This document shows positions 11,421 to 48,365 of a stretch of 52,204 nt of DNA, in pieces. Every line of letters starts with the position of its first letter. Position 1 is the first letter of the stretch. The notes below the pieces were generated by a model. It was not told where the DNA came from. It saw only the letters and a list, made by a program, of their open reading frames with translations, and searched no databases. This stretch comes from Saprospiraceae bacterium. GTDB lineage: Bacteria > Bacteroidota > Bacteroidia > Chitinophagales > Saprospiraceae. The position numbers and the translations under genes are program-made. The stretch is from the NCBI GenBank assembly GCA_027486765.1, contig JAIXOO010000058.1, positions 1 to 52,204 on the forward strand, written 5' to 3'.

Positions 11421-11809
11421 ATTTAATGTTTTGAAAAGAAATTACTTAATGAAATAATACACGGTAGCAACTCGATTCTTATAGCAACGCTCAAACACCA
11501 CAAATGTAGTTCATTTTGTTTAATTAGCAACAGTTTAACGAACTATTATTTGTCACTTAGGAACGGAAATGAAAAAAAGTAAACGAGTTGACTGAGCTAT
11601 ATTTTGATTTGGCAAGGCGCGAGGAAAGCGCATAGTGTACTACGCAACTGACGAGCAACGCAGCAAAATCAAAAAAGAGCCAGTCAAGTGTTTACTTTAT
11701 TTTATTTCCGTTCCTTAACATCCTTTTTTCGTCTAAATGCGTAGTACTTAAACAAACATTTAGGTACAACCAAAACCGGGGTTCACCCGTTCATTACAAA
11801 AACCAATCC
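11421..11809. other. Divergent intergenic region holding a large imperfect palindrome
   Basis: 389 nt between divergent genes for the T9SS protein and the DUF547 protein. Apart from the palindrome at 11559-11715 I see no coding potential, no clean -33/-7 promoter pair and no RNA gene. Both promoters must lie here, one on each side of the palindrome. Confidence 0.6.
11559..11715. repeat. Long imperfect palindrome (family E)
   Basis: The outer arms TAGGAACGGAAAT (from 11558) and ATTTCCGTTCCT (to 11715) match, and pairing continues inward with a few mismatches through AGTAAAC, TTGACTG(A/G) and ATTTTGATTT, giving roughly 45-50 paired bases around a GC-richer centre (GCGCGAGGAAAGCGC and neighbours). 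It lies between divergent genes, so it cannot be a shared terminator. Could be a MITE-like element, a cruciform-forming site or a remnant insertion; no target duplication is obvious. Confidence 0.75.
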
Positions 11810-12526
11810 ATGTACAAATCACTGCTTTATTTCTGTTTTACACTGGGCTTGATGTTTTCTACCATCAATTGGGTATCCGCCAATCCGCCCAGCCATGAAG
11901 CCTGGGATGCCCTGCTCAAAAAATACGTATCCGCTACTGGTAAGGTCAACTACAAAGGCCTCAAAACCGATAAAACCAAACTGGAAGACTACCTCAAAAG
12001 CCTGAGTAGCAATGCCCCGGAAGAATCCTGGAGTAAAGCGGAACAAATGGCCTTCTGGATCAATGCCTACAATGCTTTCACCATCAAACTGATTGTGGAC
12101 AACTATCCCCTGAGTAGCATCAGCAAACTGCATGGTGGCAAACCCTGGGATCACAAATGGATTAAAATCGGGGCAAAAACCTATTCGCTCAACAACCTCG
12201 AAAACGATATCCTGCGCCCACAGTTCAAGGATGCGCGCATCCACTTTGCGGTCAACTGCGCCGCCAAATCTTGCCCTCCCCTACTCAACGCCGCCTGGAC
12301 TGCCACTAATCTCAACAGCAACCTCGACGCCCAGGCCAAAAAATTCATCAACAATACGGCTTTCAATAAGCTGACTGAGAAAAAAGTGGAAGTGTCCAAA
12401 ATTTTTGAGTGGTACGCGGAGGATTTTGGCAATCTGGTCACTTTTATCAACAAATACGCTAGTACCAAGGTGGGTGCAAAGGCGAAGGTGGTGTATCAGG
12501 AGTACGATTGGAGTTTGAATGAGTAG
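11810..12526 (+). CDS. DUF547 domain protein, exported
   Basis: A 238-residue protein. Signal peptide MYKSLLYFCFTLGLMFSTINWVSA; DUF547 core from about 40 to 205 with VNYKGLK, FWINAYNAFTIKLIVDNYP and the Cys-containing stretch IHFAVNCAAKSCPPLL. These blocks are the hallmark of the family, which is found in plants and many bacteria and whose biochemical activity is not established. A divergent promoter region precedes it and a 15-bp hairpin follows. Single-gene unit. Confidence 0.85.
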   Translation: MYKSLLYFCFTLGLMFSTINWVSANPPSHEAWDALLKKYVSATGKVNYKGLKTDKTKLEDYLKSLSSNAPEESWSKAEQMAFWINAYNAFTIKLIVDNYPLSSISKLHGGKPWDHKWIKIGAKTYSLNNLENDILRPQFKDARIHFAVNCAAKSCPPLLNAAWTATNLNSNLDAQAKKFINNTAFNKLTEKKVEVSKIFEWYAEDFGNLVTFINKYASTKVGAKAKVVYQEYDWSLNE

Positions 12527-12545
12527 GTGTTTGCGGAGATTAGGA

Positions 12546-12580
12546 GGTTTATTCTCCGCAAAATATGCGGAGAATAAACC
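12546..12580. terminator. 15-bp perfect hairpin between convergent genes
   Basis: GGTTTATTCTCCGCA at 12546-12560 pairs perfectly with 12566-12580 around a 5-nt AAATA loop. It lies between the 3' ends of the DUF547 gene and the minus-strand VOC gene. No strong T-run follows on either strand, so termination is likely but not certain. GCGGAGA occurs once more just before the left arm (12533), a possible alternative pairing. Confidence 0.5.
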
Positions 12581-12607
12581 CAAAACTGGCCTCGTCGATT
12601 ATTCCAT

Positions 12608-13252
12608 CTACCGCGAGTCCAAAATACAAATTCCTTTTGGGGTCTGCAGGTGCGCCACCAAGTAAGGGCTTGCTGAAGCCGCAATAGGATGCACCTGAAA
12701 AGCCCCGTCAAAATTGATCTGGTCCAATACTTCCTGCAATTTTTCCGCCTTGGGGTGATAGCCCTCCAATCGAATCAAACTACACCCCGCATCGCTCAAC
12801 ATTGATGCCGGATGTGGCTCACTTTGCCACTGAATCAAGGTTGGACAAACGCCACTCATCGGCAAACTGCCATCGGGTGGAATGCTGATCAACCAATTCA
12901 AATGACTCCGGCTCATGGATTCGATGGCTCCAAACCATCCCTTTTGTAGTCCCTGAGCGGATTGGATGTCAGTGGTACGCGCTACCCAATGCCGCAGCCG
13001 GGGCTGCCCATAACGCCCCAAACCATCCAATTCAAACCAACGGGCACAATTCGGCGCGGGTAATTCGGGGTTGATGGCAATGACTTCCAGGTAGCAGCTT
13101 TCGCCGAGTTTGAGTAAGGCATTGTGGGTGCCCATGCGGGCATGAGTACCACCGGGTTGGAGGGAGACGCCGAGGGTTTCTTCTGCGTAGGTTATGCCTG
13201 CGGGTAGGTTGGGGGCGGTGATGACTAGGTGGTCGAGGTGGGTCTTGAGCAT
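12608..13252 (-). CDS. VOC family protein (Glyoxalase_3-like)
   Basis: A 214-residue protein opening LDHLVITAPNLPAGITYAEETLGV, the first beta-alpha-beta unit of the vicinal-oxygen-chelate fold with a metal-type His in LDHLV. GGTHARMGTHNALLKLGESCYLEVIAI follows, a pattern of the Glyoxalase_3 (PF13468) group. The second half is less conserved and ends ICILDSR. Substrate unknown; members are often annotated as glyoxalase-like. Transcribed alone, divergent from the M28 peptidase gene. Confidence 0.82.
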   Translation of the reverse strand: MLKTHLDHLVITAPNLPAGITYAEETLGVSLQPGGTHARMGTHNALLKLGESCYLEVIAINPELPAPNCARWFELDGLGRYGQPRLRHWVARTTDIQSAQGLQKGWFGAIESMSRSHLNWLISIPPDGSLPMSGVCPTLIQWQSEPHPASMLSDAGCSLIRLEGYHPKAEKLQEVLDQINFDGAFQVHPIAASASPYLVAHLQTPKGICILDSR

Positions 13253-13297
13253 GAATTTTTTTGAATCAAAGATAAAATTTTACTTGCCACTACGTGG

Positions 13298-13347
13298 GCG
13301 ACCGTCGATCTTTAACTGCCGCCTGCAGCGTCAAGCTCGACGGTCGC
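13298..13347. repeat. 11-bp inverted repeat in divergent gap
   Basis: GCGACCGTCGA at 13298-13308 is repeated inverted at 13337-13347, separated by 28 nt that contain CTGCCGCCTGCAG. It lies in the 271-nt gap between the minus-strand VOC gene and the plus-strand M28 peptidase gene. It could be a regulator site or a small palindromic element; nothing else is recognisable in this gap. Confidence 0.45.
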
Positions 13348-13523
13348 AGATACCAGATTAGCGCCTGGCTTCAGATTGTTTACCAATGCCCTGCAAGTGG
13401 GTTTCAACTAATCACCCCCTCCACCCAGTCAAATCCGTCATTTCTCCCCCCCATTGGTCTACAAGCCGAACCCAAAGCCAGCAATTTTTCCTACATTTCC
13501 CTTTCATCAACCATTAAAGCCAC

Positions 13524-14897: not shown

Positions 14898-14916
14898 TTT
14901 TTATTTTACCGTACCC

Positions 14917-15035
14917 TTTCTTCGGTGCCCCTATAGTGCCTTAGGTTTCTTAGGTGGTGAAAAAATGAAACCTGCGTAGCAGGATAATCTTTCACCACCT
15001 AAGAAACCTAAGGCACTATAGGGGCACCGAAGAAA
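14917..15035. repeat. Palindrome, family A, 46-bp perfect arms
   Basis: Arms 14917-14962 and 14990-15035 are exact reverse complements over 46 bp with a 27-nt loop. The arm contains degenerate 9-bp units CTTAGGTNN (for example CCTTAGGTTTCTTAGGTGG). The loop carries a second small hairpin, CCTGC-GTA-GCAGG (14971-14983). It separates two co-directional peptidase genes and ends 42 nt before the M14 start. The absence of any mismatch implies recent formation or active correction. Confidence 0.95.
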
Positions 15036-15076
15036 CAATGAGCACATTGCATCAAAAACCTCCAAAACTTCACAAA

Positions 15077-17710: not shown

Positions 17711-17719
17711 AAGGATTTG

Positions 17720-18622: not shown

Positions 18623-19597
18623 ATGCCACTCGTCCCCCATTCTTCCTACCCCGGGCCCCCACGTTACCAGCTCAACGGCCATTTTCAGACCATTTTGCCC
18701 GCTTTGACCCGCAAAATCCAGTCCCTGCATTACCAGCGTGAACGCCTGGAATTACCCGACGGCGATTTTGTAGATTTGGATTGGTTGGAGGCCAATAGCC
18801 AGGAGTTGGTCATTTTGTCTCACGGCCTCGAGGGCAGCACTGATCGGGTGTACATGAAAGCGGCAGCGCATTTTTTCCATCAAAAAGGTATGGACGTGCT
18901 GGGTTGGAATTGCCGTTCTTGCAGTGGGGAGATGAACCGCAATTTGCGCTTGTACAACCACGGCGAAATTGAAGATTTAGGGCAAGTCATCGCTCATGCG
19001 CTGCAGCGCAAAGCCTACCAAAAAATCCACCTGATTGGCTACAGCATGGGGGGCAGCATTTTGCTCAAATACCTGGGCGTACATGGCAAAAACATCCCTG
19101 AAGCCATCAAAACGGGCATTGCTTTTTCTTCGCCTTGCGACCTGCAGGGCAGCATCCAGACTTTGGAAAAACGCAGCAACTGGTTTTACCGCCGTAAGTT
19201 TTTTAGCAGTTTAAGCAAAAAAATCATGGCCAAAGCGGAGCAATTCCCGGGGCAGATCGACTTGAGCAAATTTGATCAAATCAAAACCTGGCGGGATTTT
19301 GACGAGTTTTATTCTGCGCCCATCAATGGATATCGGGATGCGGAGGACTTCTATTTTCAGGCTTCAGCGCAAAATTTTGTGGAGGGGATAACGGTACCAG
19401 CGCTCTTGTGCAATGCCATGAATGATCCCATTTTGACGCCCTCTTGTTCACCAAAACATCTGGCAAAAAACCATCCTTATTTTTATGTGGAAACGCCGCG
19501 GAAGGGTGGGCATGTCGGGTTTGCAATTCGGAATTATACGGGGCCGGATTATTGGTTGGAGCATCGGGCACTGGAATTTATTGAGGCGCATAACTAA
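18623..19597 (+). CDS. yheT: YheT-type alpha/beta hydrolase
   Basis: A 324-residue hydrolase. The N-terminal YQLNGHFQTILPALTRK, then LVILSHGLEGSTDRVYMKAAAHFF and WNCRSCSGEMNR, are diagnostic of the AB-hydrolase-4/YheT family. The nucleophile elbow is GYSMGGSILLKYLG; the Asp is in the NAMNDPIL stretch and the His in RKGGHVGF. Family members are carboxylesterases of poorly known substrate, related to eukaryotic ABHD1-3. The stop codon itself falls inside the left arm of the family A palindrome at 19594. No signal peptide, so cytosolic. Confidence 0.88.
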   Translation: MPLVPHSSYPGPPRYQLNGHFQTILPALTRKIQSLHYQRERLELPDGDFVDLDWLEANSQELVILSHGLEGSTDRVYMKAAAHFFHQKGMDVLGWNCRSCSGEMNRNLRLYNHGEIEDLGQVIAHALQRKAYQKIHLIGYSMGGSILLKYLGVHGKNIPEAIKTGIAFSSPCDLQGSIQTLEKRSNWFYRRKFFSSLSKKIMAKAEQFPGQIDLSKFDQIKTWRDFDEFYSAPINGYRDAEDFYFQASAQNFVEGITVPALLCNAMNDPILTPSCSPKHLAKNHPYFYVETPRKGGHVGFAIRNYTGPDYWLEHRALEFIEAHN

Positions 19598-19687
19598 GGT
19601 GTCTCTTAGGTGCCTTAGGTTTCTTAGGTGTTGAAAGAAGTTTTTTTACCACCTAAGAAACCTAAGGCACTTAAGGAATCACCTTAG
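19594..19687. repeat. Palindrome, family A, arms cover both flanking stops
   Basis: Left arm 19594-19632 and right arm 19648-19687 pair with a few mismatches over about 39 bp; the CCTTAGGTTTCTTAGGTG block is shared with the elements at 14917 and 30302. The loop is short and T-rich with no inner mini-hairpin. The TAA of the YheT gene (19595-19597) and the TGA of the minus-strand gene (19679-19681) both lie inside the arms, so the element supplies the last codons of both convergent genes. Confidence 0.9.
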
Positions 19688-20581
19688 ATGCGAACTTGAA
19701 AAACGGAATTTGCTCCCTAATTCAAAAGAATCGTACAACAAATCTCCCAATCCAGTTTGCAGCGTACCAAACAACTGCCAACGAGGGTTTAAATCCAACT
19801 GCCCGGACAAACTCAACGCCATAGGTCGATCCCCATTATTAAGGTATCCTGAATAGCCTCGGAAAACAGGCGACAATGCCCAGTTTTTTCCTTCCAAATT
19901 CAGCCCCAGTCCAAACAAAGGCGCATCGTTTTGATTCTGGCGATTTTGGTTGATTTGCCACACAAAAATCCCGCCCATCCCTTGGACGCTCAAATCCAGG
20001 CTGCCATCGATCAGTTTTTTGCCAAAAGACAAATCGAGGTAGTAGCCCGGCGCATCCGTATAACGCGCCATGCCCAACATGGTAGAAGACGGGAAGCGAT
20101 ACCCAATGCGCAGCGCCAAATCCAGTGGATGGGTTTCGGCCTTCAATAGCTGGATCAGCGTATGCAGGTAAATATCTCCACTTGCCAAATGTTCATTGTA
20201 AAAAATGTGGAAGGTTTTGCGCTCGGTTTTGATCGCATGAGAAAGGTTGAAATACTCGATAGGCACCCAGTACAATTCGAAACTGATCACATCGGGCACC
20301 AAATTGTAGGTGCCGTAAAGTGCCAGGTTTTGAGTAGCATCACCAGTTGTGAAGTGACTGTTCGCAGATAGCGCAAAAGAACGTTCATTGGGCACCCGCC
20401 CATTGCCCAAACGGGGAATGGGCAGTGCATTTGGCCCCAAAAACCGCGGCGAACGGATGATGTAATCACCCCAAAAGCGTTGACCATCCCAACCTACGTT
20501 GTTGGCCCACCAGTAGTGGTCTTGGGTGAAAACAGTAGTTGAAAGAAGGATAAAAAAGGGGATAAACAATAGCTTTTGCAC
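19679..20581 (-). CDS. Outer-membrane beta-rich hypothetical protein
   Basis: A 300-residue protein with signal peptide MQKLLFIPFFILLSTTVFTQ. The body is a series of amphipathic strands (FTTGDATQNLALYGTYNLV, YYLDLSFGKKLIDGSLDLSVQGMG, ALSLSGQLDLNPRWQLFGTLQTGLG) ending FELGSKFRFSSSHLR. This suggests an outer-membrane barrel. I cannot name the family. The gene is 3 nt after the zinc-ribbon methyltransferase gene, so co-transcribed. The final codons lie in a family A palindrome, so the HLR ending may be element-derived. Confidence 0.75.
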   Translation of the reverse strand: MQKLLFIPFFILLSTTVFTQDHYWWANNVGWDGQRFWGDYIIRSPRFLGPNALPIPRLGNGRVPNERSFALSANSHFTTGDATQNLALYGTYNLVPDVISFELYWVPIEYFNLSHAIKTERKTFHIFYNEHLASGDIYLHTLIQLLKAETHPLDLALRIGYRFPSSTMLGMARYTDAPGYYLDLSFGKKLIDGSLDLSVQGMGGIFVWQINQNRQNQNDAPLFGLGLNLEGKNWALSPVFRGYSGYLNNGDRPMALSLSGQLDLNPRWQLFGTLQTGLGDLLYDSFELGSKFRFSSSHLR

Positions 20582-21481: not shown

Positions 21482-21602
21482 GTTATTGCATAAAAAAAGA
21501 CATCAGTTCAAAAAAAACTGATGCCTGCAAGCTTAAGATCACAACAAAAAAAAGTATTCTAAATACTGGGTGTGAAGTTAGGGAGAATTATTGAAAAAAA
21601 AA

Positions 21603-21687
21603 AGGTTCCAAGGCTCCAAAGTTCCTGAGTTCCAGGGTTGAAGCCCCCTTAACCCTGGAACTCAGGAACTTTGGAACCTGGAACCCT
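21603..21687. repeat. Palindrome, family B
   Basis: Arms 21603-21639 and 21651-21687 (37 bp each, about 3 mismatches) flank an 11-nt C-rich loop. The arms are four degenerate 8-bp units of GTTCCAAA type (TTCCAAGG, CTCCAAAG, TTCCTGAG, TTCCAGGG). The element starts 1 nt after the stop codon of the lipoprotein gene (minus strand) and is preceded by a ten-base A run (21594-21603). It is in a co-directional gap. Confidence 0.92.
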
Positions 21688-21688
21688 C

Positions 21689-22885
21689 TTAAATTTTCAC
21701 CTGCCGCAACTGATCCACCACCACTGGTCTCAGTCTACGGGCAGCGTCCAAAATCATCAGGGCGTCGTCGGGGAAATTACCAGGGCGATTGCCAATGCGG
21801 CTACGGGTTTCCTTACTGAGGGCCCGTTCATCGCCTCGGAAAGTAGCAGCATAATTTTCCCAAAACGCTTCTGCACCAAGGGGACGAGAATCGATCACAG
21901 AACCGGAGTGTAAGTCAAAGAGTTCCAATTGGGCGTTCAGGCGGGCACCTTTGTGTTGGTACACTTCGGTGACCAAGGCTTTGACATTGATTTTGTTGGG
22001 GTATTTGATGTCGTTGCCAGCCGTGTCTTTTTTAACGTTGCCACGGGTATCGTACTCGTATACCCAGCCATCCTGGATTTGGGTTTGCTCTTCGTACTGG
22101 CGCTCGCGGTAGGTGCCGGGGCTTACCTGCACGTCGCGCAGCATGAGGGTGGCTTTAATGTCGTAGTCAATGCCCGATTGACGGTTGTTGTGGAAGACCC
22201 GCCAGCGGTCGTTGAGGTCGCGGAAACTGAGCTCAGTCAGTTCGCGGTCAAAACCAATAGGAAGAATAACTGGGGCGCGGTTTTCCACATTCACCAATAC
22301 GAATGTGGTGCCGAGGTGTTGAGCTTCACGTTGTAGGGCTTCGCGGTCGCGGTAAGTGGAGTAGTATTCGCGGATGCGTTCCAACTCATCATAGGCGCGG
22401 CGAGCAGGTGTTTTATCGTTGTTGTTGCGGCGAGCCTGACTGAGTAGGTCGCTTGCATAGTTGTAGTGGTATTCGGCAGCTTTTTCGCGGGCTTCAGTGA
22501 TCAGACCTTCCACGCGTACAAATTGGAAGGAGGCTTTATATCCCCGACGATCCACCAAGGGGATCAAGGGCTCCACGAGGCGCTGGCGGCGTTGGATACG
22601 CTGAAGAACGTCGTAGATGCGAGGCCAGGCTTCGGCGCGGTTTTCGTTGCGCAGGGCTGCGGCCTGATCCATGTCGCGGGTGGTAGCTTTTTCAAAAGCG
22701 AATTCAACCGTACGGACGAGTTCTTCGTTCTTGCGGTCTTTCCCTACCAGGCGGTTTACACTGCGTTCGATGGCTTGGTCGTAATCGCCTATTTCGGCTA
22801 GTTTAACTGGAGAAGCACAGGCGGCGGCCAAGAGGGCCAATATGGCAGTAGTCGTGATGCTGGAAATAAAGTGCTTCGGTGTCAT
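21689..22885 (-). CDS. Hypothetical lipoprotein
   Basis: A 398-residue exported protein whose leader MTPKHFISSITTTAILALLAAACAS ends in a lipobox (LAAAC), so it is probably lipid-anchored. Residues ~30-180 are charged and helical, with repeated Arg/Glu-rich segments (YDQAIERSVNRLVGKDRKNEELV, YASDLLSQARRNN) resembling TPR-like helices. The second half is beta-rich (VRTVHNNRQ-like stretches, YRERQYEEQTQIQDGWVYEY). I do not recognise the family. Followed by a family B palindrome, which lies 1 nt past the stop codon. Transcribed alone. Confidence 0.75.
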   Translation of the reverse strand: MTPKHFISSITTTAILALLAAACASPVKLAEIGDYDQAIERSVNRLVGKDRKNEELVRTVEFAFEKATTRDMDQAAALRNENRAEAWPRIYDVLQRIQRRQRLVEPLIPLVDRRGYKASFQFVRVEGLITEAREKAAEYHYNYASDLLSQARRNNNDKTPARRAYDELERIREYYSTYRDREALQREAQHLGTTFVLVNVENRAPVILPIGFDRELTELSFRDLNDRWRVFHNNRQSGIDYDIKATLMLRDVQVSPGTYRERQYEEQTQIQDGWVYEYDTRGNVKKDTAGNDIKYPNKINVKALVTEVYQHKGARLNAQLELFDLHSGSVIDSRPLGAEAFWENYAATFRGDERALSKETRSRIGNRPGNFPDDALMILDAARRLRPVVVDQLRQVKI

Positions 22886-29888: not shown

Positions 29889-29890
29889 TA

Positions 29891-30008
29891 GTTGAGAAAG
29901 TTTAAGGAGGTTGAGAAGGTTGAGGCTCCGCGAGCGACTTAGACAAGGATATTGTCAAAATCGCTCGCGGAGCCTCAACCTTCTCAACTTCCCTAAACTT
30001 CCCTCAAC
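29891..30008. repeat. Palindrome, family C
   Basis: Arms 29891-29937 and 29961-30008 (~47 bp, several mismatches and one indel) are built of GTTGAGRAG-like 9-bp units and end at a GC-rich core CTCCGCGAGCGA. The loop CTTAGACAAGGATATTGTC contains a small GACAA/TTGTC stem. It separates the DUF4407 gene from the small membrane protein gene, only 15 nt before the latter's ATG, so it is transcribed in the operon unless it terminates. Confidence 0.92.
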
Positions 30009-30301: not shown

Positions 30302-30419
30302 TACTGAGGTGTCCCTTAGGTGCCTTTGGTTTCTTAGGTGGTGAAAAAAGAAAAACCAGCGAAGCTGGGTATTATTCACCACCTAAGAAACTGAAGGCAC
30401 TTAAGGATTCACCTCAGTA
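30302..30419. repeat. Palindrome, family A, with GCGAAGC loop hairpin
   Basis: Arms 30302-30345 and 30375-30419 pair over about 44 bp with roughly 7 differences. Left arm CCCTTAGGTGCCTTTGG and TTTCTTAGGTGGTGAA match the elements at 14917 and 19594. The loop has CCAGC-GAA-GCTGG (30356-30368), the same inner hairpin as at 14971 but with one base pair flipped (T-A to A-T) and triloop GTA to GAA. Convergent gap between the small membrane protein and LysM genes. Confidence 0.93.
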
Positions 30420-30438
30420 CTACATTTTTTTAAGCTTA

Positions 30439-32019: not shown

Positions 32020-32160
32020 CCCACGAATAAATTCATGGGTTAGGTTCTTTTGTAGCCTCCCACGGATAAATTCGTGGGTTGGCGGGGTGTCTCGGGCGGT
32101 GAAAGACCACACACCCACACTTTCACAGCCACACCCACACCCATTCTTGTGGGTTGGCGG
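32020..32160. repeat. Short palindromes (THEFIRG-type), three copies
   Basis: CCCACGAATAAATTCATGGG (from 32020) and CCCACGGATAAATTCGTGGG (from 32059) are two near-perfect 20-bp palindromes; a third, related copy CCCACACCCATTCTTGTGGG starts at 32134. Two are followed by GGTTGGCGGGG. They lie upstream of the LysM gene start and just after fmt (both minus strand). Read as protein they give THEFIRG, explaining the false extension of the LysM frame. Likely a small mobile or terminator-type palindrome. Confidence 0.85.
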
Positions 32161-33133: not shown

Positions 33134-33215
33134 AAGGTTCCAGAGTTCCTAGGTTCCAAAGTTCCAGGGTTGGTGCTTAACCTTGGAACTTTGGAACCTA
33201 GGAACCTGGGAACTT
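33134..33215. repeat. Palindrome, family B, in a divergent promoter gap
   Basis: Arms 33134-33171 and 33179-33215 (38 and 37 bp, few mismatches) flank a 7-nt loop, GGTGCTT. The arms are degenerate 8-bp units (GTTCCAGA, GTTCCTAG, GTTCCAAA, GTTCCAGG). It fills most of the gap between the divergent fmt and hydrolase genes, ending 14 nt before the hydrolase ATG. Read through, it encodes LEPRNLGT and creates a false upstream start at 33170. Confidence 0.93.
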
Positions 33216-33229
33216 ATAAACAGAAATCC

Positions 33230-34096: not shown

Positions 34097-34239
34097 TTTT
34101 GAGTTACGAGTTAAGAATACATGAGTTTAGAGTTTTGAAGTGAGCTACCGCAGCGACTTAGAACAAGGTTGTGTCAAAGAGGCTGCGGTAGCTCACTTCA
34201 AAACTCTAAACTCATGTATTCGGAACTCTCAACTCAAAA
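34097..34239. repeat. Palindrome, family C core with different arms, 58 bp
   Basis: Arms 34097-34154 and 34182-34239 pair over 58 bp with about 5 mismatches, the longest stem in the window. Outer arms use GAGTT/GAATACAT/GAGTTTAGAG units unlike other family C arms, but the centre GCTACCGCAGC and the loop GACTTAGAACAAGG with TGTCAAAG match family C at 29938. Convergent gap between hydrolase and GNAT genes. Confidence 0.93.
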
Positions 34240-35338: not shown

Positions 35339-35476
35339 GGTTGAGGAAAGTTGAGGAGGTTTAGGAAGGTTTAGGCTGCCGCGAGCGATTTTGAACAAGG
35401 ATTCATTCTAGAATTTAACTGTCAATGTCGCTCGCGGCAGCCTCAACCTCACTCAACCATCTCAACCTTCCTCAAC
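35339..35476. repeat. Palindrome, family C
   Basis: Arms 35339-35388 and 35428-35476 (~49 bp) share GTTGAGGAAG-type units and the core GGCTGCCGCGAGCGA. The 39-nt loop holds TTTTGAACAAGGATTCATTC and TGTCAATG, related to the loops at 29938 and 34155. It lies between the GNAT gene (start 35326) and the pyc stop (35481), both on the minus strand. The right arm ends 4 nt from the pyc stop codon. Confidence 0.93.
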
Positions 35477-35480: not shown

Positions 35481-38400
35481 TTATTCCAGTTCAATAATCA
35501 AATCATCCTGTTCCACCAGCGTCTTTTCCTTCAAATGGATCTTCTTCACCGTTCCCGCTTCGTGGGCGATAATGGTGCTTTCCATTTTCATGGCTTCGAT
35601 GATAAAGAGTGGCGAGTTGGCTTGTACGGCATCACCTTCTTTAACCAAGATTTTGGCGAGACTACCTTGCAGAGGTGCGCCTACATCCTTGGCGGTACTT
35701 ACTTTTTGGTGGACAATCGATTCCGTTTTTGCCGTTTTATCCCGCACCGAAAGCATCCGTGATTGGCCGTTCAATTGGAAGAACACCACCCGGTTGCCGA
35801 GTTCATCAGGCTGGGTTTTGTTGAGGTATTTGACCACAATGTTTTTGCCCTTGTCCAGTTCGATGATGATTTCTTGCATGGGCTCCATGCCAAAGAAAAA
35901 GACTTTGGAAGAAAGGTGGCTCAGATCACCGTACTTACTTCTGGATTCGTGGTATTCCTCATATACCTTGGGATACATCTGGTAAGAAAGGAAATCCCGA
36001 AATTTGGTGTTGAGACCAAACTTTTCTTGGAAATCCGCGAAAGCAGCGTCAAGATCCAAGGGCTGCATGTTGGCATTGGGAGCCATGGTGTAGGGTTTCT
36101 CCCCTTTCAAGACCACGTCCTGGATGTCTTTGGGAAATCCACCTTCCACCTGACCCAAATCGCCCCGCATTAGTGCCTTCACACTATCGGGAAAAGCCAG
36201 CGCATTGCCCCGCTTGATGACATCCTCGGCGGTAAGGTTGTTGGAAGTCATGAACAGAGCCATATCACCCACTACTTTGGAAGAAGGTGTCACTTTGACG
36301 ATGTCGCCAAAAAGGTCGTTGGCTACGCGGTAATTGTGTTTGACGAGTTCAAATTTGTCTTCGAGGCCCAGCGCCCGTGCTTGCGGCCGCAAGTTGGAGT
36401 ACTGCCCCCCGGGGATTTCGTGCTCGTAGACATCCGCTGATCCTGCTCGCAATTCCGATTCAAAGGGATGATAAACCCGGCGCACCAATTCCCAATAATT
36501 CGAAAATTCATTGAGGCTGTGCAAAGAGATGGGGTTTTCACGTTCATTGCCCTCCATCATGGCCACAAAGGAGTTGAAATTGGGCTGCGAGGTCAGTCCA
36601 CTCATGGAGGCCAGCGCCAAGTCCACAACGTCAACTCCAGCCTCGACGGCTTTGAGGTAAGAAACGGCCTGGATCGAAGAAGTATCGTGGGTATGCAGGT
36701 GAATCGGCAGGTCGACCGCTTTTTTCAACTCTTTCACCAATAGATCGGCAGCATAAGGTTTGAGCAATCCCGCCATGTCTTTGATGCAGAGGATATGAGC
36801 CCCTTCGTCTTCCAATCTACGCGCCAAATCGAGGTAATATTGCAGGCTGAACTTGGTACGGGTAGGGTCACTTATGTCTCCGGTATAACAGATACAGGCT
36901 TCCGCAAGCGAATCCGTACGCTCCCTGACGGTACGAATACTGGTACGCATGGAGTCTACAAAGTTGAGCGAGTCAAAAATGCGGAAAATGTCGATGCCGG
37001 TTTTAGCTGCTTCTTCGATGAATTTGACAATCACATTGTCGGGATAAGCGGTATAGCCTACGGCGTTAGAACCCCGAATCAACATCTGTAAAAGTACATT
37101 GGGGATTGCCTGCCGAATTTGTTCCAAACGCTCCCAGGGGCATTCGTGCAAAAAGCGCAGGGCTACATCAAAGGTTGCACCACCCCATACTTCCATCGAA
37201 AACACCTGATCCCCGTGATGGCGGGCATAACTTTCGGCAATTTTCATCAGGTCGTAGGTACGTACCCGCGTGGCCAATAGCGATTGGTGGGCGTCGCGGA
37301 AGGTTGTATCGGTATATTGGATGCGGGGTTCGTCCTTCAACCATTGGACAAAACCTTCCCGCCCGAGTTCTTTCAGGCGGTCTTTGCTACCTTTGGGGAA
37401 AGCTTCTTCGGTATTGTATTGGGGCACCACTGGATTCAACAAGACCACATTTGGGTCTTTAAATAATACATCCGGGTTTTTGTTGACAATGACTTCCGCT
37501 ACGTAGCGTAAAATCCGGGTACCACTGTCCTGCCAGTTGCGCGACTTGAGCAGTTGCGGATTTTCTTTGATGAAATTAACGGTGAAGTTCCGGTTTTGGA
37601 AGTCCTCGTTTTCCAGCAAATTCAACAAAAAGCCGATGTTGGTTTTGACGCCTCTCACCCGAAACTCGCGTAGTGCCCGGTGCAATTTGCGCGCAGCTGA
37701 AGGCATATCGCGCCCCCAGGCGGTCACTTTCACCAACAAACTGTCAAAAAAGGGCGAAATGCGGGCGCCTGCAAAAGCACTCCCTGCATCCAGACGAATG
37801 CCCATACCACCCGGACTGCGGTAGGCGATCAGGGTACCGTAATCGGGTTTGAATTCATTGGTGGGGTCTTCCGTAGTGATCCGGCACTGGATGGCACAAC
37901 CGGAACATTCAATGGATTCCTGGCTCGGGATACCCACTTCCTCACCAGTCAAGGGCAGGCCTTGGGCAATCAGGATTTGGGAACGCACCAGGTCAATGCC
38001 CGTCACTTCTTCCGTAACGGTATGCTCCACCTGGATACGGGGGTTCACTTCAATGAAATAGACGTTTTCTTCTTCGTCCAGCAGAAATTCCACGGTTCCT
38101 GCATTGTTGTAGCCTACTGCCCGGGCTAGTTTGAGGGCGTATTCGTAAAGTTTTTCTTTGGTGCCTTCTTTGCGGATGCTCACCCCGGGTGCAATTTCGA
38201 CTACTTTTTGGAAGCGACGCTGAATCGAACAGTCGCGTTCGTACAAGTGAACGATGTTGCCGTGGCGGTCACCCAGGATTTGTACTTCGATGTGTTTAGG
38301 GCGTTCGATGAATTTTTCCAAAAAGAGGGTTCCGTCCCCAAAAGCTGTCAAAGCCTCACTACCAGCTTCTTTGTATTCCTTGAGCAATGAATCATCGTCG

Positions 38401-38942
38401 CGTACCACCCGCATACCCCGGCCACCGCCGCCCGACGCAGCCTTGATGATCACAGGATAACCAATACGTCGCGCCTCAGCAAGGGCGATTTCAGCAGTAC
38501 TGAGGTCGAGTTCACTATCAGGGATGAGGGGAATGCCCGTTTTGCGCGCGATGTTCTTGGCGGCAATTTTATCCCCCAACTGATCCATAATTTCGGGGTC
38601 TGGGCCGATAAAGGTGATTCCAGCATCGCGGCAGGCCCGGGCAAAGTCTACATTTTCGGACAAAAAGCCATAACCCGGGTGAATGGCGTCCACCTGATTC
38701 TCTTTGGCTACCCGAATGATCTCCTTTATGTTAAGGTAAGGTTTGAGTGGGTCATCATCCGCTCCAATTTGGAAGGCCTGGTCAGCTTTGAAGCGGTGCA
38801 AGGAGTAACGATCTTCAAAAGTGTAGATCGCAACAGTAGAAATTTTCAGCTCAGCAGCCGCGCGTAATACCCGTATGGCTATTTCCCCGCGATTGGCTAC
38901 CAAAATCTTCCGGAATTGCTGGTTTAAACTTGTCATGTACAT
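35481..38942 (-). CDS. pyc: Pyruvate carboxylase
   Basis: An 1153-residue single-chain enzyme. Order: biotin carboxylase from ILVANRGEIAIRVLRAA through the ATP-grasp GGGGRGMRVV to ~460; carboxyltransferase from ~560 (TDTTFRDAHQSLLATRVRTYDLM, QTHDT-type site HLHTHDTSSIQ); biotinyl domain at the C-terminus with EAMKMES, Lys1119 being the biotin site. It makes oxaloacetate from pyruvate, bicarbonate and ATP. Start ATG 38942, with an alternative two codons on. No neighbour on its own transcript; the 3' side carries a family C palindrome. Bicarbonate demand links it to the CA/SulP pair further along (inference). Confidence 0.96.
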   Translation of the reverse strand: MYMTSLNQQFRKILVANRGEIAIRVLRAAAELKISTVAIYTFEDRYSLHRFKADQAFQIGADDDPLKPYLNIKEIIRVAKENQVDAIHPGYGFLSENVDFARACRDAGITFIGPDPEIMDQLGDKIAAKNIARKTGIPLIPDSELDLSTAEIALAEARRIGYPVIIKAASGGGGRGMRVVRDDDSLLKEYKEAGSEALTAFGDGTLFLEKFIERPKHIEVQILGDRHGNIVHLYERDCSIQRRFQKVVEIAPGVSIRKEGTKEKLYEYALKLARAVGYNNAGTVEFLLDEEENVYFIEVNPRIQVEHTVTEEVTGIDLVRSQILIAQGLPLTGEEVGIPSQESIECSGCAIQCRITTEDPTNEFKPDYGTLIAYRSPGGMGIRLDAGSAFAGARISPFFDSLLVKVTAWGRDMPSAARKLHRALREFRVRGVKTNIGFLLNLLENEDFQNRNFTVNFIKENPQLLKSRNWQDSGTRILRYVAEVIVNKNPDVLFKDPNVVLLNPVVPQYNTEEAFPKGSKDRLKELGREGFVQWLKDEPRIQYTDTTFRDAHQSLLATRVRTYDLMKIAESYARHHGDQVFSMEVWGGATFDVALRFLHECPWERLEQIRQAIPNVLLQMLIRGSNAVGYTAYPDNVIVKFIEEAAKTGIDIFRIFDSLNFVDSMRTSIRTVRERTDSLAEACICYTGDISDPTRTKFSLQYYLDLARRLEDEGAHILCIKDMAGLLKPYAADLLVKELKKAVDLPIHLHTHDTSSIQAVSYLKAVEAGVDVVDLALASMSGLTSQPNFNSFVAMMEGNERENPISLHSLNEFSNYWELVRRVYHPFESELRAGSADVYEHEIPGGQYSNLRPQARALGLEDKFELVKHNYRVANDLFGDIVKVTPSSKVVGDMALFMTSNNLTAEDVIKRGNALAFPDSVKALMRGDLGQVEGGFPKDIQDVVLKGEKPYTMAPNANMQPLDLDAAFADFQEKFGLNTKFRDFLSYQMYPKVYEEYHESRSKYGDLSHLSSKVFFFGMEPMQEIIIELDKGKNIVVKYLNKTQPDELGNRVVFFQLNGQSRMLSVRDKTAKTESIVHQKVSTAKDVGAPLQGSLAKILVKEGDAVQANSPLFIIEAMKMESTIIAHEAGTVKKIHLKEKTLVEQDDLIIELE

Positions 38943-42013: not shown

Positions 42014-42025
42014 AAGAAGTAATAA

Positions 42026-42127
42026 TTTTGAGTGTTCCAGGGTTCCAAAGTTCCAAAGTTCCTGTGTTCAAGAGCTCAACATTAAGCCTTCGAACCCAGG
42101 AACTTTGGAGCGTTGGAACCCTCAAAC
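42026..42127. repeat. Palindrome, family B, unequal arms
   Basis: Left arm 42026-42069 and right arm 42092-42127 (with the GTTCCAAAG-type 8-bp units) pair, but the left arm has one extra 7-8 bp unit (GTTCCAAAGTTCCAAAG against a single copy). It lies between divergent methyltransferase and DUF2027-Smr genes, so must overlap at least one promoter or leader; the right arm ends 9 nt before the ATG at 42136. Confidence 0.92.
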
Positions 42128-42135
42128 TCTAACTT

Positions 42136-43224: not shown

Positions 43225-43258
43225 TTGTTGAAGGAGCTTAAGGCTGTCGCGAGCGACA
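43225..43258. repeat. Decayed half of a family C element
   Basis: TTGTTGAAGGAGCTTAAGG (43226-43243) runs into CTGTCGCGAGCGACA, whose centre TGTCGC-GA-GCGACA (43245-43258) is a short hairpin. The core resembles CCGCGAGCGA of family C, but there is no matching second arm. It lies in the 37-nt convergent gap between the Smr and GmhB-like genes and borders the stop codon at 43262. Confidence 0.6.
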
Positions 43259-43261
43259 CAA

Positions 43262-43834
43262 CTACAAGTTAAGGTTTGAAGAGTGGCAATACTCAGCAAA
43301 TTCCCACAATGAAGCAAAGCGTTGATGGACCTGTAGGCCATTGGCCAAGGCTCGTTCCAATTTATCCAGTTCGTCGCTTTTGCCTTCGATGAGCACGGTG
43401 TACATGCCCAGGTTTTGGCCAAATTCCAGGTCAGAAACCGAATCGCCCACCATGATTGAAGTTTGAAAATCAATGGCCGGGAAATTCGCTTGGGCTTTGA
43501 GCGCCATGGCCGGTGCGGGTTTGCGGCAATTGTTGGGGACACTGGATAAGTCCGGGCAATAGTATACTGCGTCGATGCGCCCACCGACTACTGCAATTTC
43601 ATGGATCATTTTTTGGTGAATCTCAGCCAGTTGGGCCTCACTCATTTTCCCTTTGCCGATGCCTTGCTGGTTGGTCACCACGATGATGTGTTCAAAATGG
43701 GTGGCGAAAAAAGCCAGTGCTTCGAGGGCACGCGGGGTGAATTGAAAATCAGACCATTGGGCTACATAGTCGCCGGGGAGGCGCTCGTTGATGACGCCAT
43801 CGCGGTCGAGGAAGAGGGTGTGGTAGGGAATCAT
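43262..43834 (-). CDS. gmhB: HAD-IIIA phosphatase, GmhB-like
   Basis: A 190-residue phosphatase. FLDRDGVINERLPGDYV carries the nucleophile D10 and D12; VTNQQGIGKGKM is motif II, and MVGDSVSDLEFGQNLGM the Asp-containing motif IV. Cys-containing segment CPDLSSVPNNCRKPAPAM agrees with the zinc-loop of D-glycero-D-manno-heptose-1,7-bisphosphate 7-phosphatases, though only part of the usual CxH...C set is seen. Such enzymes make the heptose of LPS. It overlaps the RelE-type toxin gene by ATGA, an unusual operon. Confidence 0.82.
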   Translation of the reverse strand: MIPYHTLFLDRDGVINERLPGDYVAQWSDFQFTPRALEALAFFATHFEHIIVVTNQQGIGKGKMSEAQLAEIHQKMIHEIAVVGGRIDAVYYCPDLSSVPNNCRKPAPAMALKAQANFPAIDFQTSIMVGDSVSDLEFGQNLGMYTVLIEGKSDELDKLERALANGLQVHQRFASLWEFAEYCHSSNLNL

Positions 43835-44214
43835 TCCTCTTCCGATGAATTCCTCTCTGAAATAATAGCCTCAACTTCTCGAATCAAAAAATTTAAAATA
43901 GAATCATCAATAGAACTATGTTCAGCCTTATCATAGATTGTTAGCAGGAAAAGTTCGGAGGTATCTTGTATTTCTGCCTCTTCAAAATAGTAAGTGATGA
44001 CTCTTGCTCCTCCACTCTTTCCTCGGTTCTTGCTTTTTATTGCCAGTCGGATTTTATACGTATTCTCTTTTATAAGCACACCCATTTTAGGGTTCATCAA
44101 AAGTTCACTTTGCAACTTTATCAAATCCTCTTTCAATGACGCATGCTTCTTAGATAGTTTTTTTACTTCTGATCGGAATTTATCCGTAGCAGAGATAATA
44201 ACTTTATAACTCAT
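43831..44214 (-). CDS. RelE/HigB-type toxin
   Basis: A 127-residue protein starting MSYKVIISATDKFRSEVKKLSKKH, with LKEDLIKLQSELLMNP, YKIRLAIKSKNRGKSGGARVITYYF and a C-terminal LFLLTIYDKAEHSSID, the RelE/ParE fold of mRNA-cleaving toxins. The acidic tail (VEAIISERNSSEEE) makes it longer than the usual ~90 residues. It overlaps the antitoxin gene by 11 nt and gmhB-like by 4 nt. The region is AT-rich compared with its neighbours, a hint of transfer. Confidence 0.8.
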   Translation of the reverse strand: MSYKVIISATDKFRSEVKKLSKKHASLKEDLIKLQSELLMNPKMGVLIKENTYKIRLAIKSKNRGKSGGARVITYYFEEAEIQDTSELFLLTIYDKAEHSSIDDSILNFLIREVEAIISERNSSEEE

Positions 44215-44434
44215 TGATCACATCATTAAGACTAAGTCTTGGTTTTAAGCCTTTTCTCATCTCATTCATCTCCTGAAAGGCCTGCAAAAGGCTATCTTTC
44301 AATAAACTATATTCAATCATTTTTTTTATTTCTTCCCAATCTTCAATGGGTATTAAAACACCCGTTTTTTTACCCTCTTCATCAGTTAGGTAATTCAAGT
44401 TGACCGTGTCCATAGAAAATGCAGTAGCTGTCAT
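44204..44434 (-). CDS. Antitoxin of RelE-type pair
   Basis: A 76-residue protein. The first 45 residues (NLNYLTDEEGKKTGVLIPIEDWEEIKKMI) resemble the antitoxin N-terminus with a VLIPIEDWE strand-helix as in Phd/YefM-like proteins; the C-terminus is helical and charged. Gene order antitoxin-toxin, with an 11-nt overlap, is the standard arrangement. It likely represses its own promoter in 44435-44475. Confidence lower than for the toxin, since short antitoxins diverge quickly. Confidence 0.72.
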   Translation of the reverse strand: MTATAFSMDTVNLNYLTDEEGKKTGVLIPIEDWEEIKKMIEYSLLKDSLLQAFQEMNEMRKGLKPRLSLNDVINEL

Positions 44435-44474
44435 CTTTCATAATTTTCATCACAAAAATATCAGTTTTACAAAT

Positions 44475-44528
44475 CAAAAACAAGGACTTTGTTTGTTCTA
44501 GTTTGAAAATCAGAACAAACAAAGCCCT
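44475..44528 (-). terminator. Terminator of sugar porter gene
   Basis: A 17-bp stem (44483-44499 with 44512-44528, AGG.CTTTGTTTGTTCT and its complement, one mismatch) lies 13 nt past the porter stop. On the minus strand it is followed by TGTTTTTGATTT. It isolates the antitoxin operon from the porter. Confidence 0.75.
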
Positions 44529-44541
44529 GCTTTTCCCCCTC

Positions 44542-45864: not shown

Positions 45865-45910
45865 GTGTAGAGTTGATTTACACACGAAACTACGAAAAAA
45901 GTGATGGTAT

Positions 45911-45988
45911 AATGATGAGTGATGAATGATAAGTGATGAATCTCGCAATAAGCTTGAATTCATCACTTATCATTCATTACTCATCATT
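45911..45988. repeat. Palindrome, family D
   Basis: Arms 45911-45941 and 45958-45988 pair over 31 bp with one mismatch, with weaker pairing out to ~45899 and 45997. The units are 7 bp (GATGAAT, GATGAGT, GATAAGT). The loop is CTCGCAATAAGCTTGA. It lies between co-directional sugar porter and FtsX permease genes; the right flank covers the permease stop codon (45990-45992). Frames read through it give HHSS-like runs. Confidence 0.92.
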
Positions 45989-45989
45989 G

Positions 45990-48365
45990 TCATTCACTTC
46001 TTAAAGCCGTCACCGGATTTTTCAAGGCCGCACGGATACTTTGGAAACTCACGGTAAGTAAAGCAATGCCCAGGGCGATGCCACCTGCTGCTGCAAAAGC
46101 CCACCAGGGCATATCGATCCGGTAGGCAAAATCCTGTAACCAGCGCTGTAGCAACCAATAGGCGACGGGTGCCGCCAACAATACAGCGATCAAAACCAGT
46201 TTCAGGAAGTCAAAAGCCAGCAAACGCACCACAGTACCCACTCCTGCGCCCAAAACTTTGCGTACGCCAATTTCCTTGGTGCGCCGAGCCACCATGTAGT
46301 AAGCCAGTCCAAACAAACCCAAACCGGCGATGAACAAAGCAAGCACTGAAAAGAGGAAAAATACCCGCCCGAGGCGTTGTTCCGCCTCATAAAATTTCTG
46401 ATAATCGTCCTCCATAAAGCTGTATCCGAAGGGCGCAGTAGGGGCTAATTCATTCCAAAGTTCTTTTACACTATTGATTTGAGCCGCCAAATCCCCCGCC
46501 TTTAAACGAACAGCTAAATAGGACGGCGTCCAAATGCTAGGCATAAAAAGCAATGGTTCAACCTGATGGTGCAAGGAGAGGTAATGAAAATCTTCCATCA
46601 CGCCAATAACCTGATAGGCGGTATTGTTCCCACCAGTAATGTGTTTGCCAAGGGGATCAGCCCAGCCCAGTTTTTTGGCCATGGCCCGATTGATGATGCA
46701 GCTGAGTGAATCAGCGCGGGAGTTTTGGCGAAAATCACGGCCAGCCTCCAGTTTTACTTCCAAGGTGCTCAGGTAAGCAGGATCAGCAAAGACATAATTG
46801 AAGGAGCTTTCTTTAAAATTGGCAGGTTGTTCTGGTGTAAAAATGGTAGAGTCAAATAATTTTCCTGGGAGCGCACCTGCGCCAGCCGCCTTTTCGACAA
46901 TGGGTAGTTTGCTCAATTTTTCCAAAAATACCGCATAGTTCTGATCCAAAGCATATGCCCGGTCAATGACCAGGACTCGATCCTTGTTAAAACCCAAATC
47001 CGAATTCAGTAAAAATCGAAATTGCGTGCCAACCACCATCGTTCCAATGATCAAAGCCGTGGAAATGGAAAATTGACCCACCACCAGGGATTCGCGCAAA
47101 CGGCTACGCCCCAAGTGGCTCCCCAATTGTCCTTTTAGCGTAGCAATGGTTTTGAAACCTGAAAGCACCACGGCTGGAAATACCCCGGCTAACAGGCTCG
47201 TAAATAGGGTAATTGCCGCCAACAAAGCGAGCAAAAAGGGCAGGTTCAGCCATTGCAACTGCATGTTTTTCCCAGCCAATACATTAAAATAGGGCAAGCT
47301 AAATCCCAAAATGGCCAGCGCCAATAACAAAGCGCCAAATACTGCCAAAAAAGATTCGCCAAAAAACTGCAACATCAATTGGCCCCGTCCTGAGCCCAGG
47401 GCCTTGCGTACACCAACCTCTTTCGCCCGTGTAATCGAGCGCGCGGTACTCAGATTGATGAAATTGATACAAGCCAAAACCAAAATAAACAAAGCGACAA
47501 CGGAAAAAATGTAGAGGTAAGCCCTACGGCCATTTACCCCTAGTTCCATTTCCAAATTGGAATCGAGGTGGATCGAATTCAGGCTTTGAAAAGGGAAGCG
47601 GGAGAAATTGCCCTTGGAGCGAAACTCTTCCTCCAGAATATCTTGCTCCACATAAGTCTGGAATTTCTTTTGCAGTGCGATGGGATCAGCCCCTGGCTTG
47701 AGGCTAAAATAATTGTATACCGTGGCAAAACCCCACAAATCTTTGCGTTCCTTGACAAATTGCAATTGGTTCAGTGCGCCCAAAAACTGAAATTGAAAAT
47801 GGGATTGGGTGGGCATATTTTGCACCAGCGCGCTGACCTTGAGTGCCGTACCATCGTTCCTCAAGAGGGTTTGTCCAATGGGATTCTGATTGGGGAAATA
47901 TTTTTCAGCGGCACTTTGGCTCAATGCGATGGTGTTGGGTTCGCGGAGGGCTGGAGTCAGATCACCTTCCAATACTTTGATGTCGAACACTTTGGAGAAA
48001 TTTTCATCAACGTACAAAAGCTCCGTTTCCCGCACGTATTCAGTACCTTTTTTGAGCGTAAGTCCCGTTTGGTACATCTGAGTCGCGTATTCAACCTCGG
48101 GGAAATTTTCTTCCAGTGCACGTTTGATGGGCACTGGGCCGACCGGGATTTTCCATTCATTGTCTCCAAAACGGCCATTCCAGATCACGCGCTGAATTCG
48201 ATCGGCCTTTTGGTGAAATTGATCGTATTGTAATTCATCGTTCACCCAAAGGGCGATCAACAAACAAACTGCGATACCGATCGCTAAACCTGCAATGTTG
48301 ATGGCAGTATAACCCTGGTGTTTCCAAAGCTGCCGGAAAGTCGTGAGTACGTAATTTTTGAGCAT
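45990..48365 (-). CDS. ABC-type permease, FtsX/MacB family
   Basis: A 791-residue permease with two MacB_PCD-FtsX units. It begins MLKNYVLTTFRQLWKHQGYTAINIAGLAIGIAVCLLI; the core has NFINLSTARSITRAKEVGVRKALGSGRGQLMLQF and, near the end, RRTKEIGVRKVLGAG, the FtsX signature repeats, with four main membrane segments per unit set. Such single-chain permeases in Bacteroidota usually pair with a separate ATPase, absent here. Substrate unknown (lipid, macrolide or peptide export). The stop lies in the family D palindrome. Confidence 0.9.
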   Translation of the reverse strand: MLKNYVLTTFRQLWKHQGYTAINIAGLAIGIAVCLLIALWVNDELQYDQFHQKADRIQRVIWNGRFGDNEWKIPVGPVPIKRALEENFPEVEYATQMYQTGLTLKKGTEYVRETELLYVDENFSKVFDIKVLEGDLTPALREPNTIALSQSAAEKYFPNQNPIGQTLLRNDGTALKVSALVQNMPTQSHFQFQFLGALNQLQFVKERKDLWGFATVYNYFSLKPGADPIALQKKFQTYVEQDILEEEFRSKGNFSRFPFQSLNSIHLDSNLEMELGVNGRRAYLYIFSVVALFILVLACINFINLSTARSITRAKEVGVRKALGSGRGQLMLQFFGESFLAVFGALLLALAILGFSLPYFNVLAGKNMQLQWLNLPFLLALLAAITLFTSLLAGVFPAVVLSGFKTIATLKGQLGSHLGRSRLRESLVVGQFSISTALIIGTMVVGTQFRFLLNSDLGFNKDRVLVIDRAYALDQNYAVFLEKLSKLPIVEKAAGAGALPGKLFDSTIFTPEQPANFKESSFNYVFADPAYLSTLEVKLEAGRDFRQNSRADSLSCIINRAMAKKLGWADPLGKHITGGNNTAYQVIGVMEDFHYLSLHHQVEPLLFMPSIWTPSYLAVRLKAGDLAAQINSVKELWNELAPTAPFGYSFMEDDYQKFYEAEQRLGRVFFLFSVLALFIAGLGLFGLAYYMVARRTKEIGVRKVLGAGVGTVVRLLAFDFLKLVLIAVLLAAPVAYWLLQRWLQDFAYRIDMPWWAFAAAGGIALGIALLTVSFQSIRAALKNPVTALRSE

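Follow-up and report, generated by a model that had tools for sequence, protein, structure and literature searches.

Word-armed palindromes: a dispersed class of intergenic repeats in a Saprospiraceae bacterium and its relatives

Positions 1 to 52,204 of contig JAIXOO010000058.1 from a Saprospiraceae bacterium (assembly GCA_027486765.1) carry a series of long palindromes in the gaps between genes. This whole stretch of 52,204 nucleotides is here called the window. A preliminary description, made from the sequence alone, had listed eleven palindromes or related repeats in it. We compared them with the rest of the genome (G000; 7.72 Mb in 514 contigs), with three palindrome-rich relatives of the same genus (G001, G002 and G003; G002 is complete, with a chromosome of 8,371,686 bp) and with a palindrome-poor member of that genus (G004). 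The palindromes belong to a dispersed, modular class that lies close to stop codons, has arms built of inward-pointing words, turns over fast between species and includes one word that recurs across phyla.

Arm detection recovered all eleven listed features (Table 1). At a stricter score of at least 22 ten of them pass, the exception being the one at 11559, and a random control (Markov-1 sequence of 156,239 bases, modelled on 10 stretches of the own genome) yields none, so the palindromes are not a product of chance. Gene calls made with our own hexamer script agree with the gap classes assigned earlier. The earlier statement that no copy lies in a gene body is correct within the window, with the qualification that several copies touch gene ends. 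The repeat at 11559 had been grouped with the others and has to be set apart: it has fixed ends and 105 nt between its arms, and copies occur in G001, G002 and G003 at 84-98% identity. It resembles a miniature inverted-repeat transposable element (MITE) and is unrelated to the word-armed palindromes.

Table 1. Palindromes and one separate repeat in the window, with arm length and percentage of complementary positions
Feature	Positions	Strand	Arms	Gap	Words, loop or core, and gene ends	Corresponding gap in relatives
Family A palindrome	14917..15035	.	46 nt, 100%	co-directional	CTTAGGTG-type words; loop with mini-hairpin CCTGCGTAGCAGG; ends 2 bp 5' of ATG	same family in G001 and G003
Family A palindrome	19594..19690	.	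at 19605, 35 nt, 89%	convergent	overlaps stop codons of both genes (19597, 19679)	same family in G003; variant in G001; no palindrome in G002
Family B palindrome	21600..21690	.	40 nt, 88%	co-directional, behind stop codon	GTTCCARR words	GTTCG words in G002
Family C palindrome	29889..30008	.	at 29898, 49 nt, 92%	co-directional	GTTGAGRAG words and core CCGCGAGCGACTTAGACAA	empty in G002; variant in G003
Family A palindrome	30302..30420	.	at 30314, 35 nt, 89%	convergent		variant with CTAAGGTG words in G003
Family B palindrome	33134..33216	.	at 33137, 35 nt, 89%	divergent		empty in G003; GTTGAG words in G001; two arms of unlike words in G002
Family D palindrome	34097..34239	.	66 nt, 89%	convergent	GAGTTACG-type words and core CTACCGCAGCGACTTAGA	
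Family C palindrome	35340..35476	.	55 nt, 84%	co-directional	adjoins stop of gene 35481-38942	same family in G001; CACAAAG words in G002
Family B palindrome	42026..42130	.	at 42031, 49 nt, 80%	divergent		TCAGC words in G001 and G003; GTTCG words in G002
Family E palindrome	45911..45988	.	31 nt, 97%	co-directional, adjoins stop	TGATGAR 7-mer words	
Separate dispersed element	11559..11715	.	26-bp terminal inverted repeats, 92%	divergent	157 bp	

The arms are composed of words of 7-10 letters, namely GTTGAGRAG, GTTCCARR, CTTAGGTG, GAGTTACG, TGATGAR, TGAAAAR, CACAAAGGA, ATTTCGG, CACAGATT, CACGACGA, TGACGAR, TCAGCNR, GTTGAAG and GTTCGGG. Word arms are present in 110 of 147 strong palindromes; the other 37 contain no listed word, and GTAG-type hairpins are among them. 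A test for a single lag is passed by 36 of the 147 arms, compared with 4 of 147 shuffled ones. The lags are 7 (17 arms), 8 (13), 10 (5) and 9 (1), and in the remaining arms the spacing varies. The words also have a polarity. Under strict patterns, words that occur on the two strands of a cluster always face inward (105 of 105 clusters; 60 more match on one strand only), and a looser count of word matches gives 120 inward against 2 outward. Tandem heptanucleotide words between genes are known from the short tandemly repeated repetitive (STRR) sequences of cyanobacteria, which the present arms may resemble in part. In the palindromes, a pair of arrays is set face to face around a core or loop, and the 105 clusters with inward words on the two strands do not follow the one-directional arrangement of STRR arrays.

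One core, CTACCGC(G)AGCGACTTAGACAA, also written CTACCGC..AGCGACTTAGAC, is common to copies of four arm families. By a pattern of its first seven letters it accompanies GTTGAG arms in 33 copies, GAGTTACG arms in 2, TGAAAAR arms in 6 and TGATGAR arms in 1, so arms and core behave as modules. Most of the family A copies displayed have a small hairpin of CCTGCGNAGCAGG type in the loop. A conserved loop or core is found within some families and not in all of them; the preliminary description had named the lack of a conserved loop in other copies as a point that would tell against it.

Copies occur well beyond the window, as had been supposed for a dispersed class of several families. A scan that made no use of the families found 93 strong palindromes in 748 kb of the own genome (12.4 per 100 kb, a density that is perhaps somewhat high, as most of the stretches came from contigs with earlier hits) and 44 in 400 kb of evenly spaced stretches of G002 (11.0 per 100 kb). 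Both genomes have about one per 8-9 kb, which by extrapolation would put the number of strong palindromes per genome at roughly 900-1000, with word arms in about three quarters. In a first look, queries with single copies returned 191 candidates for family A, 176 for B, 222 for C and 133 for D in the own genome; these totals are unconfirmed, only the best 40 per family having been scored.

The preliminary description took occurrence in all gene orientations as a feature of the palindromes, and this proved to be an accident of the window. In about 1.2 Mb, made up of the own-genome and G002 stretches together with the window, 138 palindromes could be classified: 81 are co-directional, 48 convergent and 9 divergent (a further 2 are centred in a called gene, and another 7 lie at stretch ends). 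They occupy 81/371 co-directional, 48/112 convergent and 9/159 divergent gaps of at least 60 bp, ratios that are rough because palindromes themselves lengthen gaps. The class is strongly depleted from divergent gaps, and the divergent copies of the window are untypical. Co-directional copies have their median at 8 bp from the stop codon and 51 bp from the next start; 70 are closer to the stop, 9 to the start, and 2 are tied.

A position behind stops and in convergent gaps would suit functional 3'-end hairpins, that is, bidirectional terminators or stabilizers of mRNA, for which the slot is selected and the sequence can be replaced. Intrinsic terminators likewise place a hairpin directly behind the stop and may serve both directions in convergent gaps. 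It had been argued earlier that terminators would not sit in divergent gaps. Some copies do occupy such gaps, but the depletion outside the window takes away the force of the argument, and what weakens the terminator idea is the missing U-tract and the missing G-U bias. Behind the hairpin, the T fraction in 12 nt is 0.31 compared with 0.304 in intergenic sequence, so no U-tract was found there. On the sense strand, mismatches in the 81 co-directional copies comprise 58 G-T and 64 A-C, so that wobble pairs are not favoured. The loop could be read in 26 copies of family A; 15 of these are convergent, and the co-directional loops are oriented 6 with the genes and 5 against. Covariance models from Rfam gave no match at gathering scores in window positions 11000-46500. 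Selection for a strand-specific RNA was rejected on the absent G-U excess, the absent U-tract and the orientation of the loops; these data argue only against a role that depends on the strand of an RNA and leave room for other roles.

A further point for a 3'-end function is that strict canonical terminators occur at 0 of 65 ends in co-directional palindrome gaps of G000, compared with 16 of 190. Counter to this, there is no such deficit in the convergent gaps of the same genome (12/80 versus 8/72) or in the co-directional gaps of G002 (1/35 versus 3/107). Substitution of the palindromes for canonical terminators was rejected, since the deficit is confined to co-directional gaps of G000. The palindromes also differ from intrinsic terminators in being much longer and in forming dispersed repeat families that are missing from orthologous gaps of relatives.

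To follow the palindromes between species we compared 53 gaps, from the window and from two further 20-kb stretches picked as palindrome-rich, with G001-G003 and, where aligned, G004. Presence and absence at orthologous gaps, which the preliminary description had proposed to look for, is found. Clean absences are seen at window 29888 in G002 (23 versus 135 bp), window 33104 in G003 (37 versus 125 bp), L203:6792 in both G003 and G002, and L205:17630 in G002 (15 versus 143 bp). In the reverse cases the relative has the longer gap: 147 bp in G001 at L205:16603, compared with 13 bp in the own genome and 14 bp in G003, and 193 bp in G002 at window 28451, compared with 54 and 53 bp.

Gaps occupied in the own genome also tend to be occupied in relatives. 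Counted by words, G003 is occupied in 9 of 13 own-occupied and 3 of 35 own-empty gaps (P = 7e-5), G001 in 7 of 11 and 3 of 25 (P = 0.003) and G002 in 8 of 13 and 3 of 22 (P = 0.007). Counted by any inverted repeat, which includes some repeats without word arms, the figures are 14/17 versus 6/31 for G003 (P = 3.6e-5) and 8/13 versus 4/23 for G001 (P = 0.011), with odds ratios stratified by gap type of 12.5 and 4.9. In a part of the shared gaps the words are different (3 of 9 in G003, 4 of 7 in G001 and 6 of 8 in G002), which concerns nine distinct gaps of the 53. Clear cases are window 41941, with GTTCC in the own genome and TCAGC in G001 and G003; L203:8293, with CTTAGGTG and, in G001 and G003, GTTGAG with the core; L203:19048, with TGAAAAR, TGATGAR in G001 and a third spelling, AGATGAA, in G003; L205:9239, with ATTTCGG and TCAGC in G002; and L205:17630, with GTTCC and GTTGAG in G003. 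At L203 1944-2009, a GTAG-type hairpin of the repetitive extragenic palindromic (REP) kind stands opposite a palindrome of TGAAAAG words in G003 whose left array is strongly expanded. Mosaic palindromes, as steps of replacement, were seen once by eye (G002, 33104 gap) and not at all by strict patterns in 61 stretches. The sharing of occupied gaps, in part with other words, favours 3'-end hairpins held in a slot; the clean empty sites count against them.

Empty sites in relatives raise the possibility that the palindromes are MITEs, remnants of a DDE transposon that has lost almost all of its interior and kept two terminal inverted repeats. MITEs too have inverted repeats, no coding capacity and empty sites, and within a word family the outer ends are similar and the loops variable, as judged by eye. 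When the junctions at empty sites are read by eye, however, no constant target duplication is seen: a duplication of 3-4 bp is possible at two of them, and none is clear elsewhere. Further, the tandem-word arms differ in the number of words, several word families have a common core, and the palindromes have almost no interior. No partner was found for them among the window proteins and the Y1 genes; DDE transposases were not searched genome-wide. In the window itself, Pfam matches among 43 called genes and one further open reading frame (ORF) include no transposase family (9 of the 44 are without any Pfam match), in agreement with the earlier statement that none is present. We regard a MITE origin as improbable.

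The genes of the window offer two observations of their own. The ORF missed by our hexamer script, at 1196-2671, encodes 491 aa and has no Pfam match. At 43831-44413, two small adjoining ORFs, one with a match to a RelB-like antitoxin, are a possible toxin-antitoxin pair.

The palindromes are unevenly distributed in the family. Among 60 genomes including the own, a family C query found matches in the own genome, G001, G002 and G003. In 400 kb of G004 only 5 strong palindromes were found, and no word arms are apparent in them; in a looser word search 2 of 22 of its loci have inward word pairs (GTTGAG, GTTGAA), so it is poor rather than empty, and its 14897 gap has facing ACGGATT-like words by eye. 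Samples of 84-100 kb each from four other genera (G005, G007, G018 and G033) have 0, 1, 0 and 0 strong palindromes, and the looser search found no inward word pairs in 20 of their loci. The scarcity of palindromes in G004, a species of the same genus, and their near absence from the samples of the four other genera also count against functional 3'-end hairpins, and on balance we think a selected 3'-end function unlikely as the explanation of the class, if not negligibly so. Loss of SbcCD was ruled out as the cause of palindrome persistence, because SbcD scores above the cut-off in 12 of 13 genomes, palindrome-rich and palindrome-poor alike; the one miss is G001, which is 86% complete.

The idea that Y1 transposases (REP-associated tyrosine transposases, RAYTs) move the palindromes, which the preliminary description had proposed to test, failed. 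It would make them REP sequences, or REPINs (REP doublets forming hairpins), mobilized by resident enzymes, and the own genome does have six Y1 genes. Their number is however uncorrelated with palindrome richness (9 in the palindrome-poor G004; 6 in G000, 3 in G001, 7 in G002 and 13 in G003), on which ground they were rejected as the driver. No family A-E word occurs at the six loci of G000 with about 1.5 kb on each side; locus L122 has a single one-stranded GTTCG match, and five of the six have other hairpins. At L122 (1167-2123) the RAYT-like gene lies between CTAC...GTAG palindromes, a classical REP pair of another family. In the window, paired CCCACGAATAAATTC hairpins at about 32020-32084 are REPIN-like and overlap the called start of a LysM-domain gene; relatives of these hairpins flank an own-genome Y1 gene on both sides (locus L118), a relation that speaks in favour of the REPIN explanation.

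In the relevant passages of PMC3733652, GTAG REPs are described as palindromes of 20-40 bp that have the tetranucleotide GTAG at their foot, and CGTC REPs as having CGTC at one foot and no dedicated transposase. The ten window copies have no GTAG, CTAC, CGTC or GACG in the 12 nt at each outer end, and their arms alone are longer than the 20-40 bp given there for whole REPs. The likeness to REPs, bacterial interspersed mosaic elements (BIMEs), REPINs and CGTC REPs lies in the many extragenic palindromes per genome and their several families, as those passages report them. The word-armed palindromes differ in having tandem-word arms of 31-66 nt without a GTAG or CGTC foot, words that point inward and cores that behave as modules; a sister species can have a palindrome of other words in a given gap, and one arm word recurs in many phyla. 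Mobilization of REP or REPIN elements by resident Y1 enzymes is already disfavoured by these data, and we give it very little credence.

The arm word that crosses phyla is CACRAAGRCACRAAGRCACRAAG, which arms one palindrome in G000 (stretch L197) and one in G002 (stretch L215). At least 119 stretches of the species collection contain it; by their names, the 80 titled matches listed cover about 14 phyla. Among the matches listed, 62 of 154 sites (with some overlap between sites) fall within an inverted-repeat arm, compared with 7 of 462 random positions, and the word is palindromic at 46 of 119 loci, 41 of them inward and 5 outward. The 31 titled palindromic loci represent at least 10 phyla, including Spirochaetes, Deltaproteobacteria/Desulfobacterota, Planctomycetes, other Proteobacteria, Acidobacteria, Bacteroidetes, Chloroflexi, Sumerlaeota, Verrucomicrobia and Cyanobacteria. 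Gene positions for this word came from a crude longest-ORF caller and are not relied upon: such calls contain 33 of 122 sites in genomes and 24 of 82 in viral contigs, and stop-side distances are only somewhat shorter (median 40 versus 95 bp in genomes, 18 versus 24 bp in viral contigs).

Viral contigs contain the word in 76 stretches, compared with 1 for a reversed control word, and it is palindromic in 24 of the 76. In viral contigs L459 and L492, phage head or tail genes stand on both sides of the palindrome. L492 has a phage tail-gene cluster with two intergenic palindromes, at 5279-5372 and 6074-6147. Viral scans with the window's words covered families A, B, C and E. TGATGAR occurs in 113 viral stretches and is palindromic in 10, always inward; the comparison for this word is with control positions only, 2 of 339. 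The family B word has 15 of 21 viral matches in an inverted repeat; we do not count these as support, since 10 of the 15 are one recurring, long-looped sequence of other look. This virus sequence, with GTTCCAAAG words in the inverted repeat (L378, L380, L381, L382, L385, L386, L388, L389, L397 and L398), is probably unrelated.

Looking across these comparisons, we lean, with reservations, toward the reading that the palindromes are a large, hitherto undescribed class of non-autonomous repeats, mobile at the level of DNA, which genes tolerate at their 3' side and which can be replaced where they stand. Mobility, a copying mechanism, replacement in place and copying between arms are what we infer from comparing sequences. 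The palindrome would spread as a hairpin-forming unit and settle chiefly at the least harmful sites, 3' of stop codons and off promoters. A resident copy might then be replaced in place by one of another family, through conversion or through nested insertion at the palindrome. At times one arm may be recopied from its partner, in the manner of template switching at a replication hairpin, which would keep the two alike. Any activity as a 3'-end hairpin for the host would be a by-product, and an enzyme, if there is one, would act in trans.

Changes within arms bear on the copying step. In nine same-family comparisons with 349 arm pairs, selected from the own palindrome and hence biased toward pairing, 276 pairs are unchanged and 9 show mirrored double changes with pairing kept, compared with about one estimated by chance. 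The rest comprise 29 one-side changes, 4 two-side changes with one species unpaired, 5 unpaired and unchanged pairs and 26 in gaps. Mirrored changes, short tandem words and the one-sided expansion of an array in G003 (L203:1944) would also fit an origin in place, in which replication slippage and quasi-palindrome correction make palindromes that do not move. Such a process hardly accounts for the many copies in one genome that agree in word and core, or for the occurrence of one word in many phyla. As an account of the class, origin in place is largely excluded by copy number and seems most improbable to us; as the part that corrects arms, such a process could contribute.

Several points weigh against the reading as mobile repeats. 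We found no insertion event, no enzyme and no constant target duplication, the junctions at empty sites having been read by eye. Sharing of gaps could reflect selection for a hairpin in the slot, and by any inverted repeat it is not significant for G002 (7/14 versus 6/21, P = 0.29; stratified odds ratio 2.6). GTTCG against GTTCC accounts for 4 of the 6 different-word gaps of G002 and is the sole difference in 2 of the 9 gaps, and may be one family respelled. One-side changes (29) outnumber mirrored ones (9), so correction of arms is not strict. The cross-phylum word is not among the words of the window. In viral contigs the family A word occurs in 0 stretches and the family C word has 0 of 9 matches in an inverted repeat; one query each found no family C in plasmid records and no family A in phage records.

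A wider proposal, which we offer tentatively and hold to be somewhat doubtful, is that the word-armed palindromes of many phyla form a single class of hairpin DNA that travels horizontally, partly phage-borne and with a limited shared vocabulary of words. Each lineage would amplify its own words, and newcomers would replace occupants, so that the slot outlives the sequence. Such mobile DNA would be characterized by its symmetry and the polarity of its words, not by the end recognized by a transposase.

The preliminary description is supported in its claim of a dispersed class of palindromes in several families, and not in its argument from divergent gaps or its RAYT suggestion. Its author knew of no described element class with these features, and we found no published description of word-armed palindromes in the literature searched, most subscription journals being outside its coverage. 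A survey of inverted repeats in 118,019 genomes (PMC13155455) has neither 'bacteroid' nor 'Haliscomenobacter' in its main text. In organelle genomes (sponge, Volvox), hairpin or palindromic repeats between genes have been taken to spread although no enzyme for it is known, as may be the case here; the present palindromes differ in residing in bacterial chromosomes and phages and in their tandem-word arms.

Other-word palindromes in the gaps of sister species, together with one arm word in at least 10 phyla, have no ready explanation in terms of REP/RAYT systems or MITEs. Bacterial genomes are generally considered to tolerate long palindromes poorly because these are unstable, and the present genomes keep many hundreds of them despite SbcD. 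If the reading as mobile repeats holds, many intergenic hairpins that would pass for terminators in such genomes are spreading repeats, and the slots would allow the turnover of palindromes to be measured directly.

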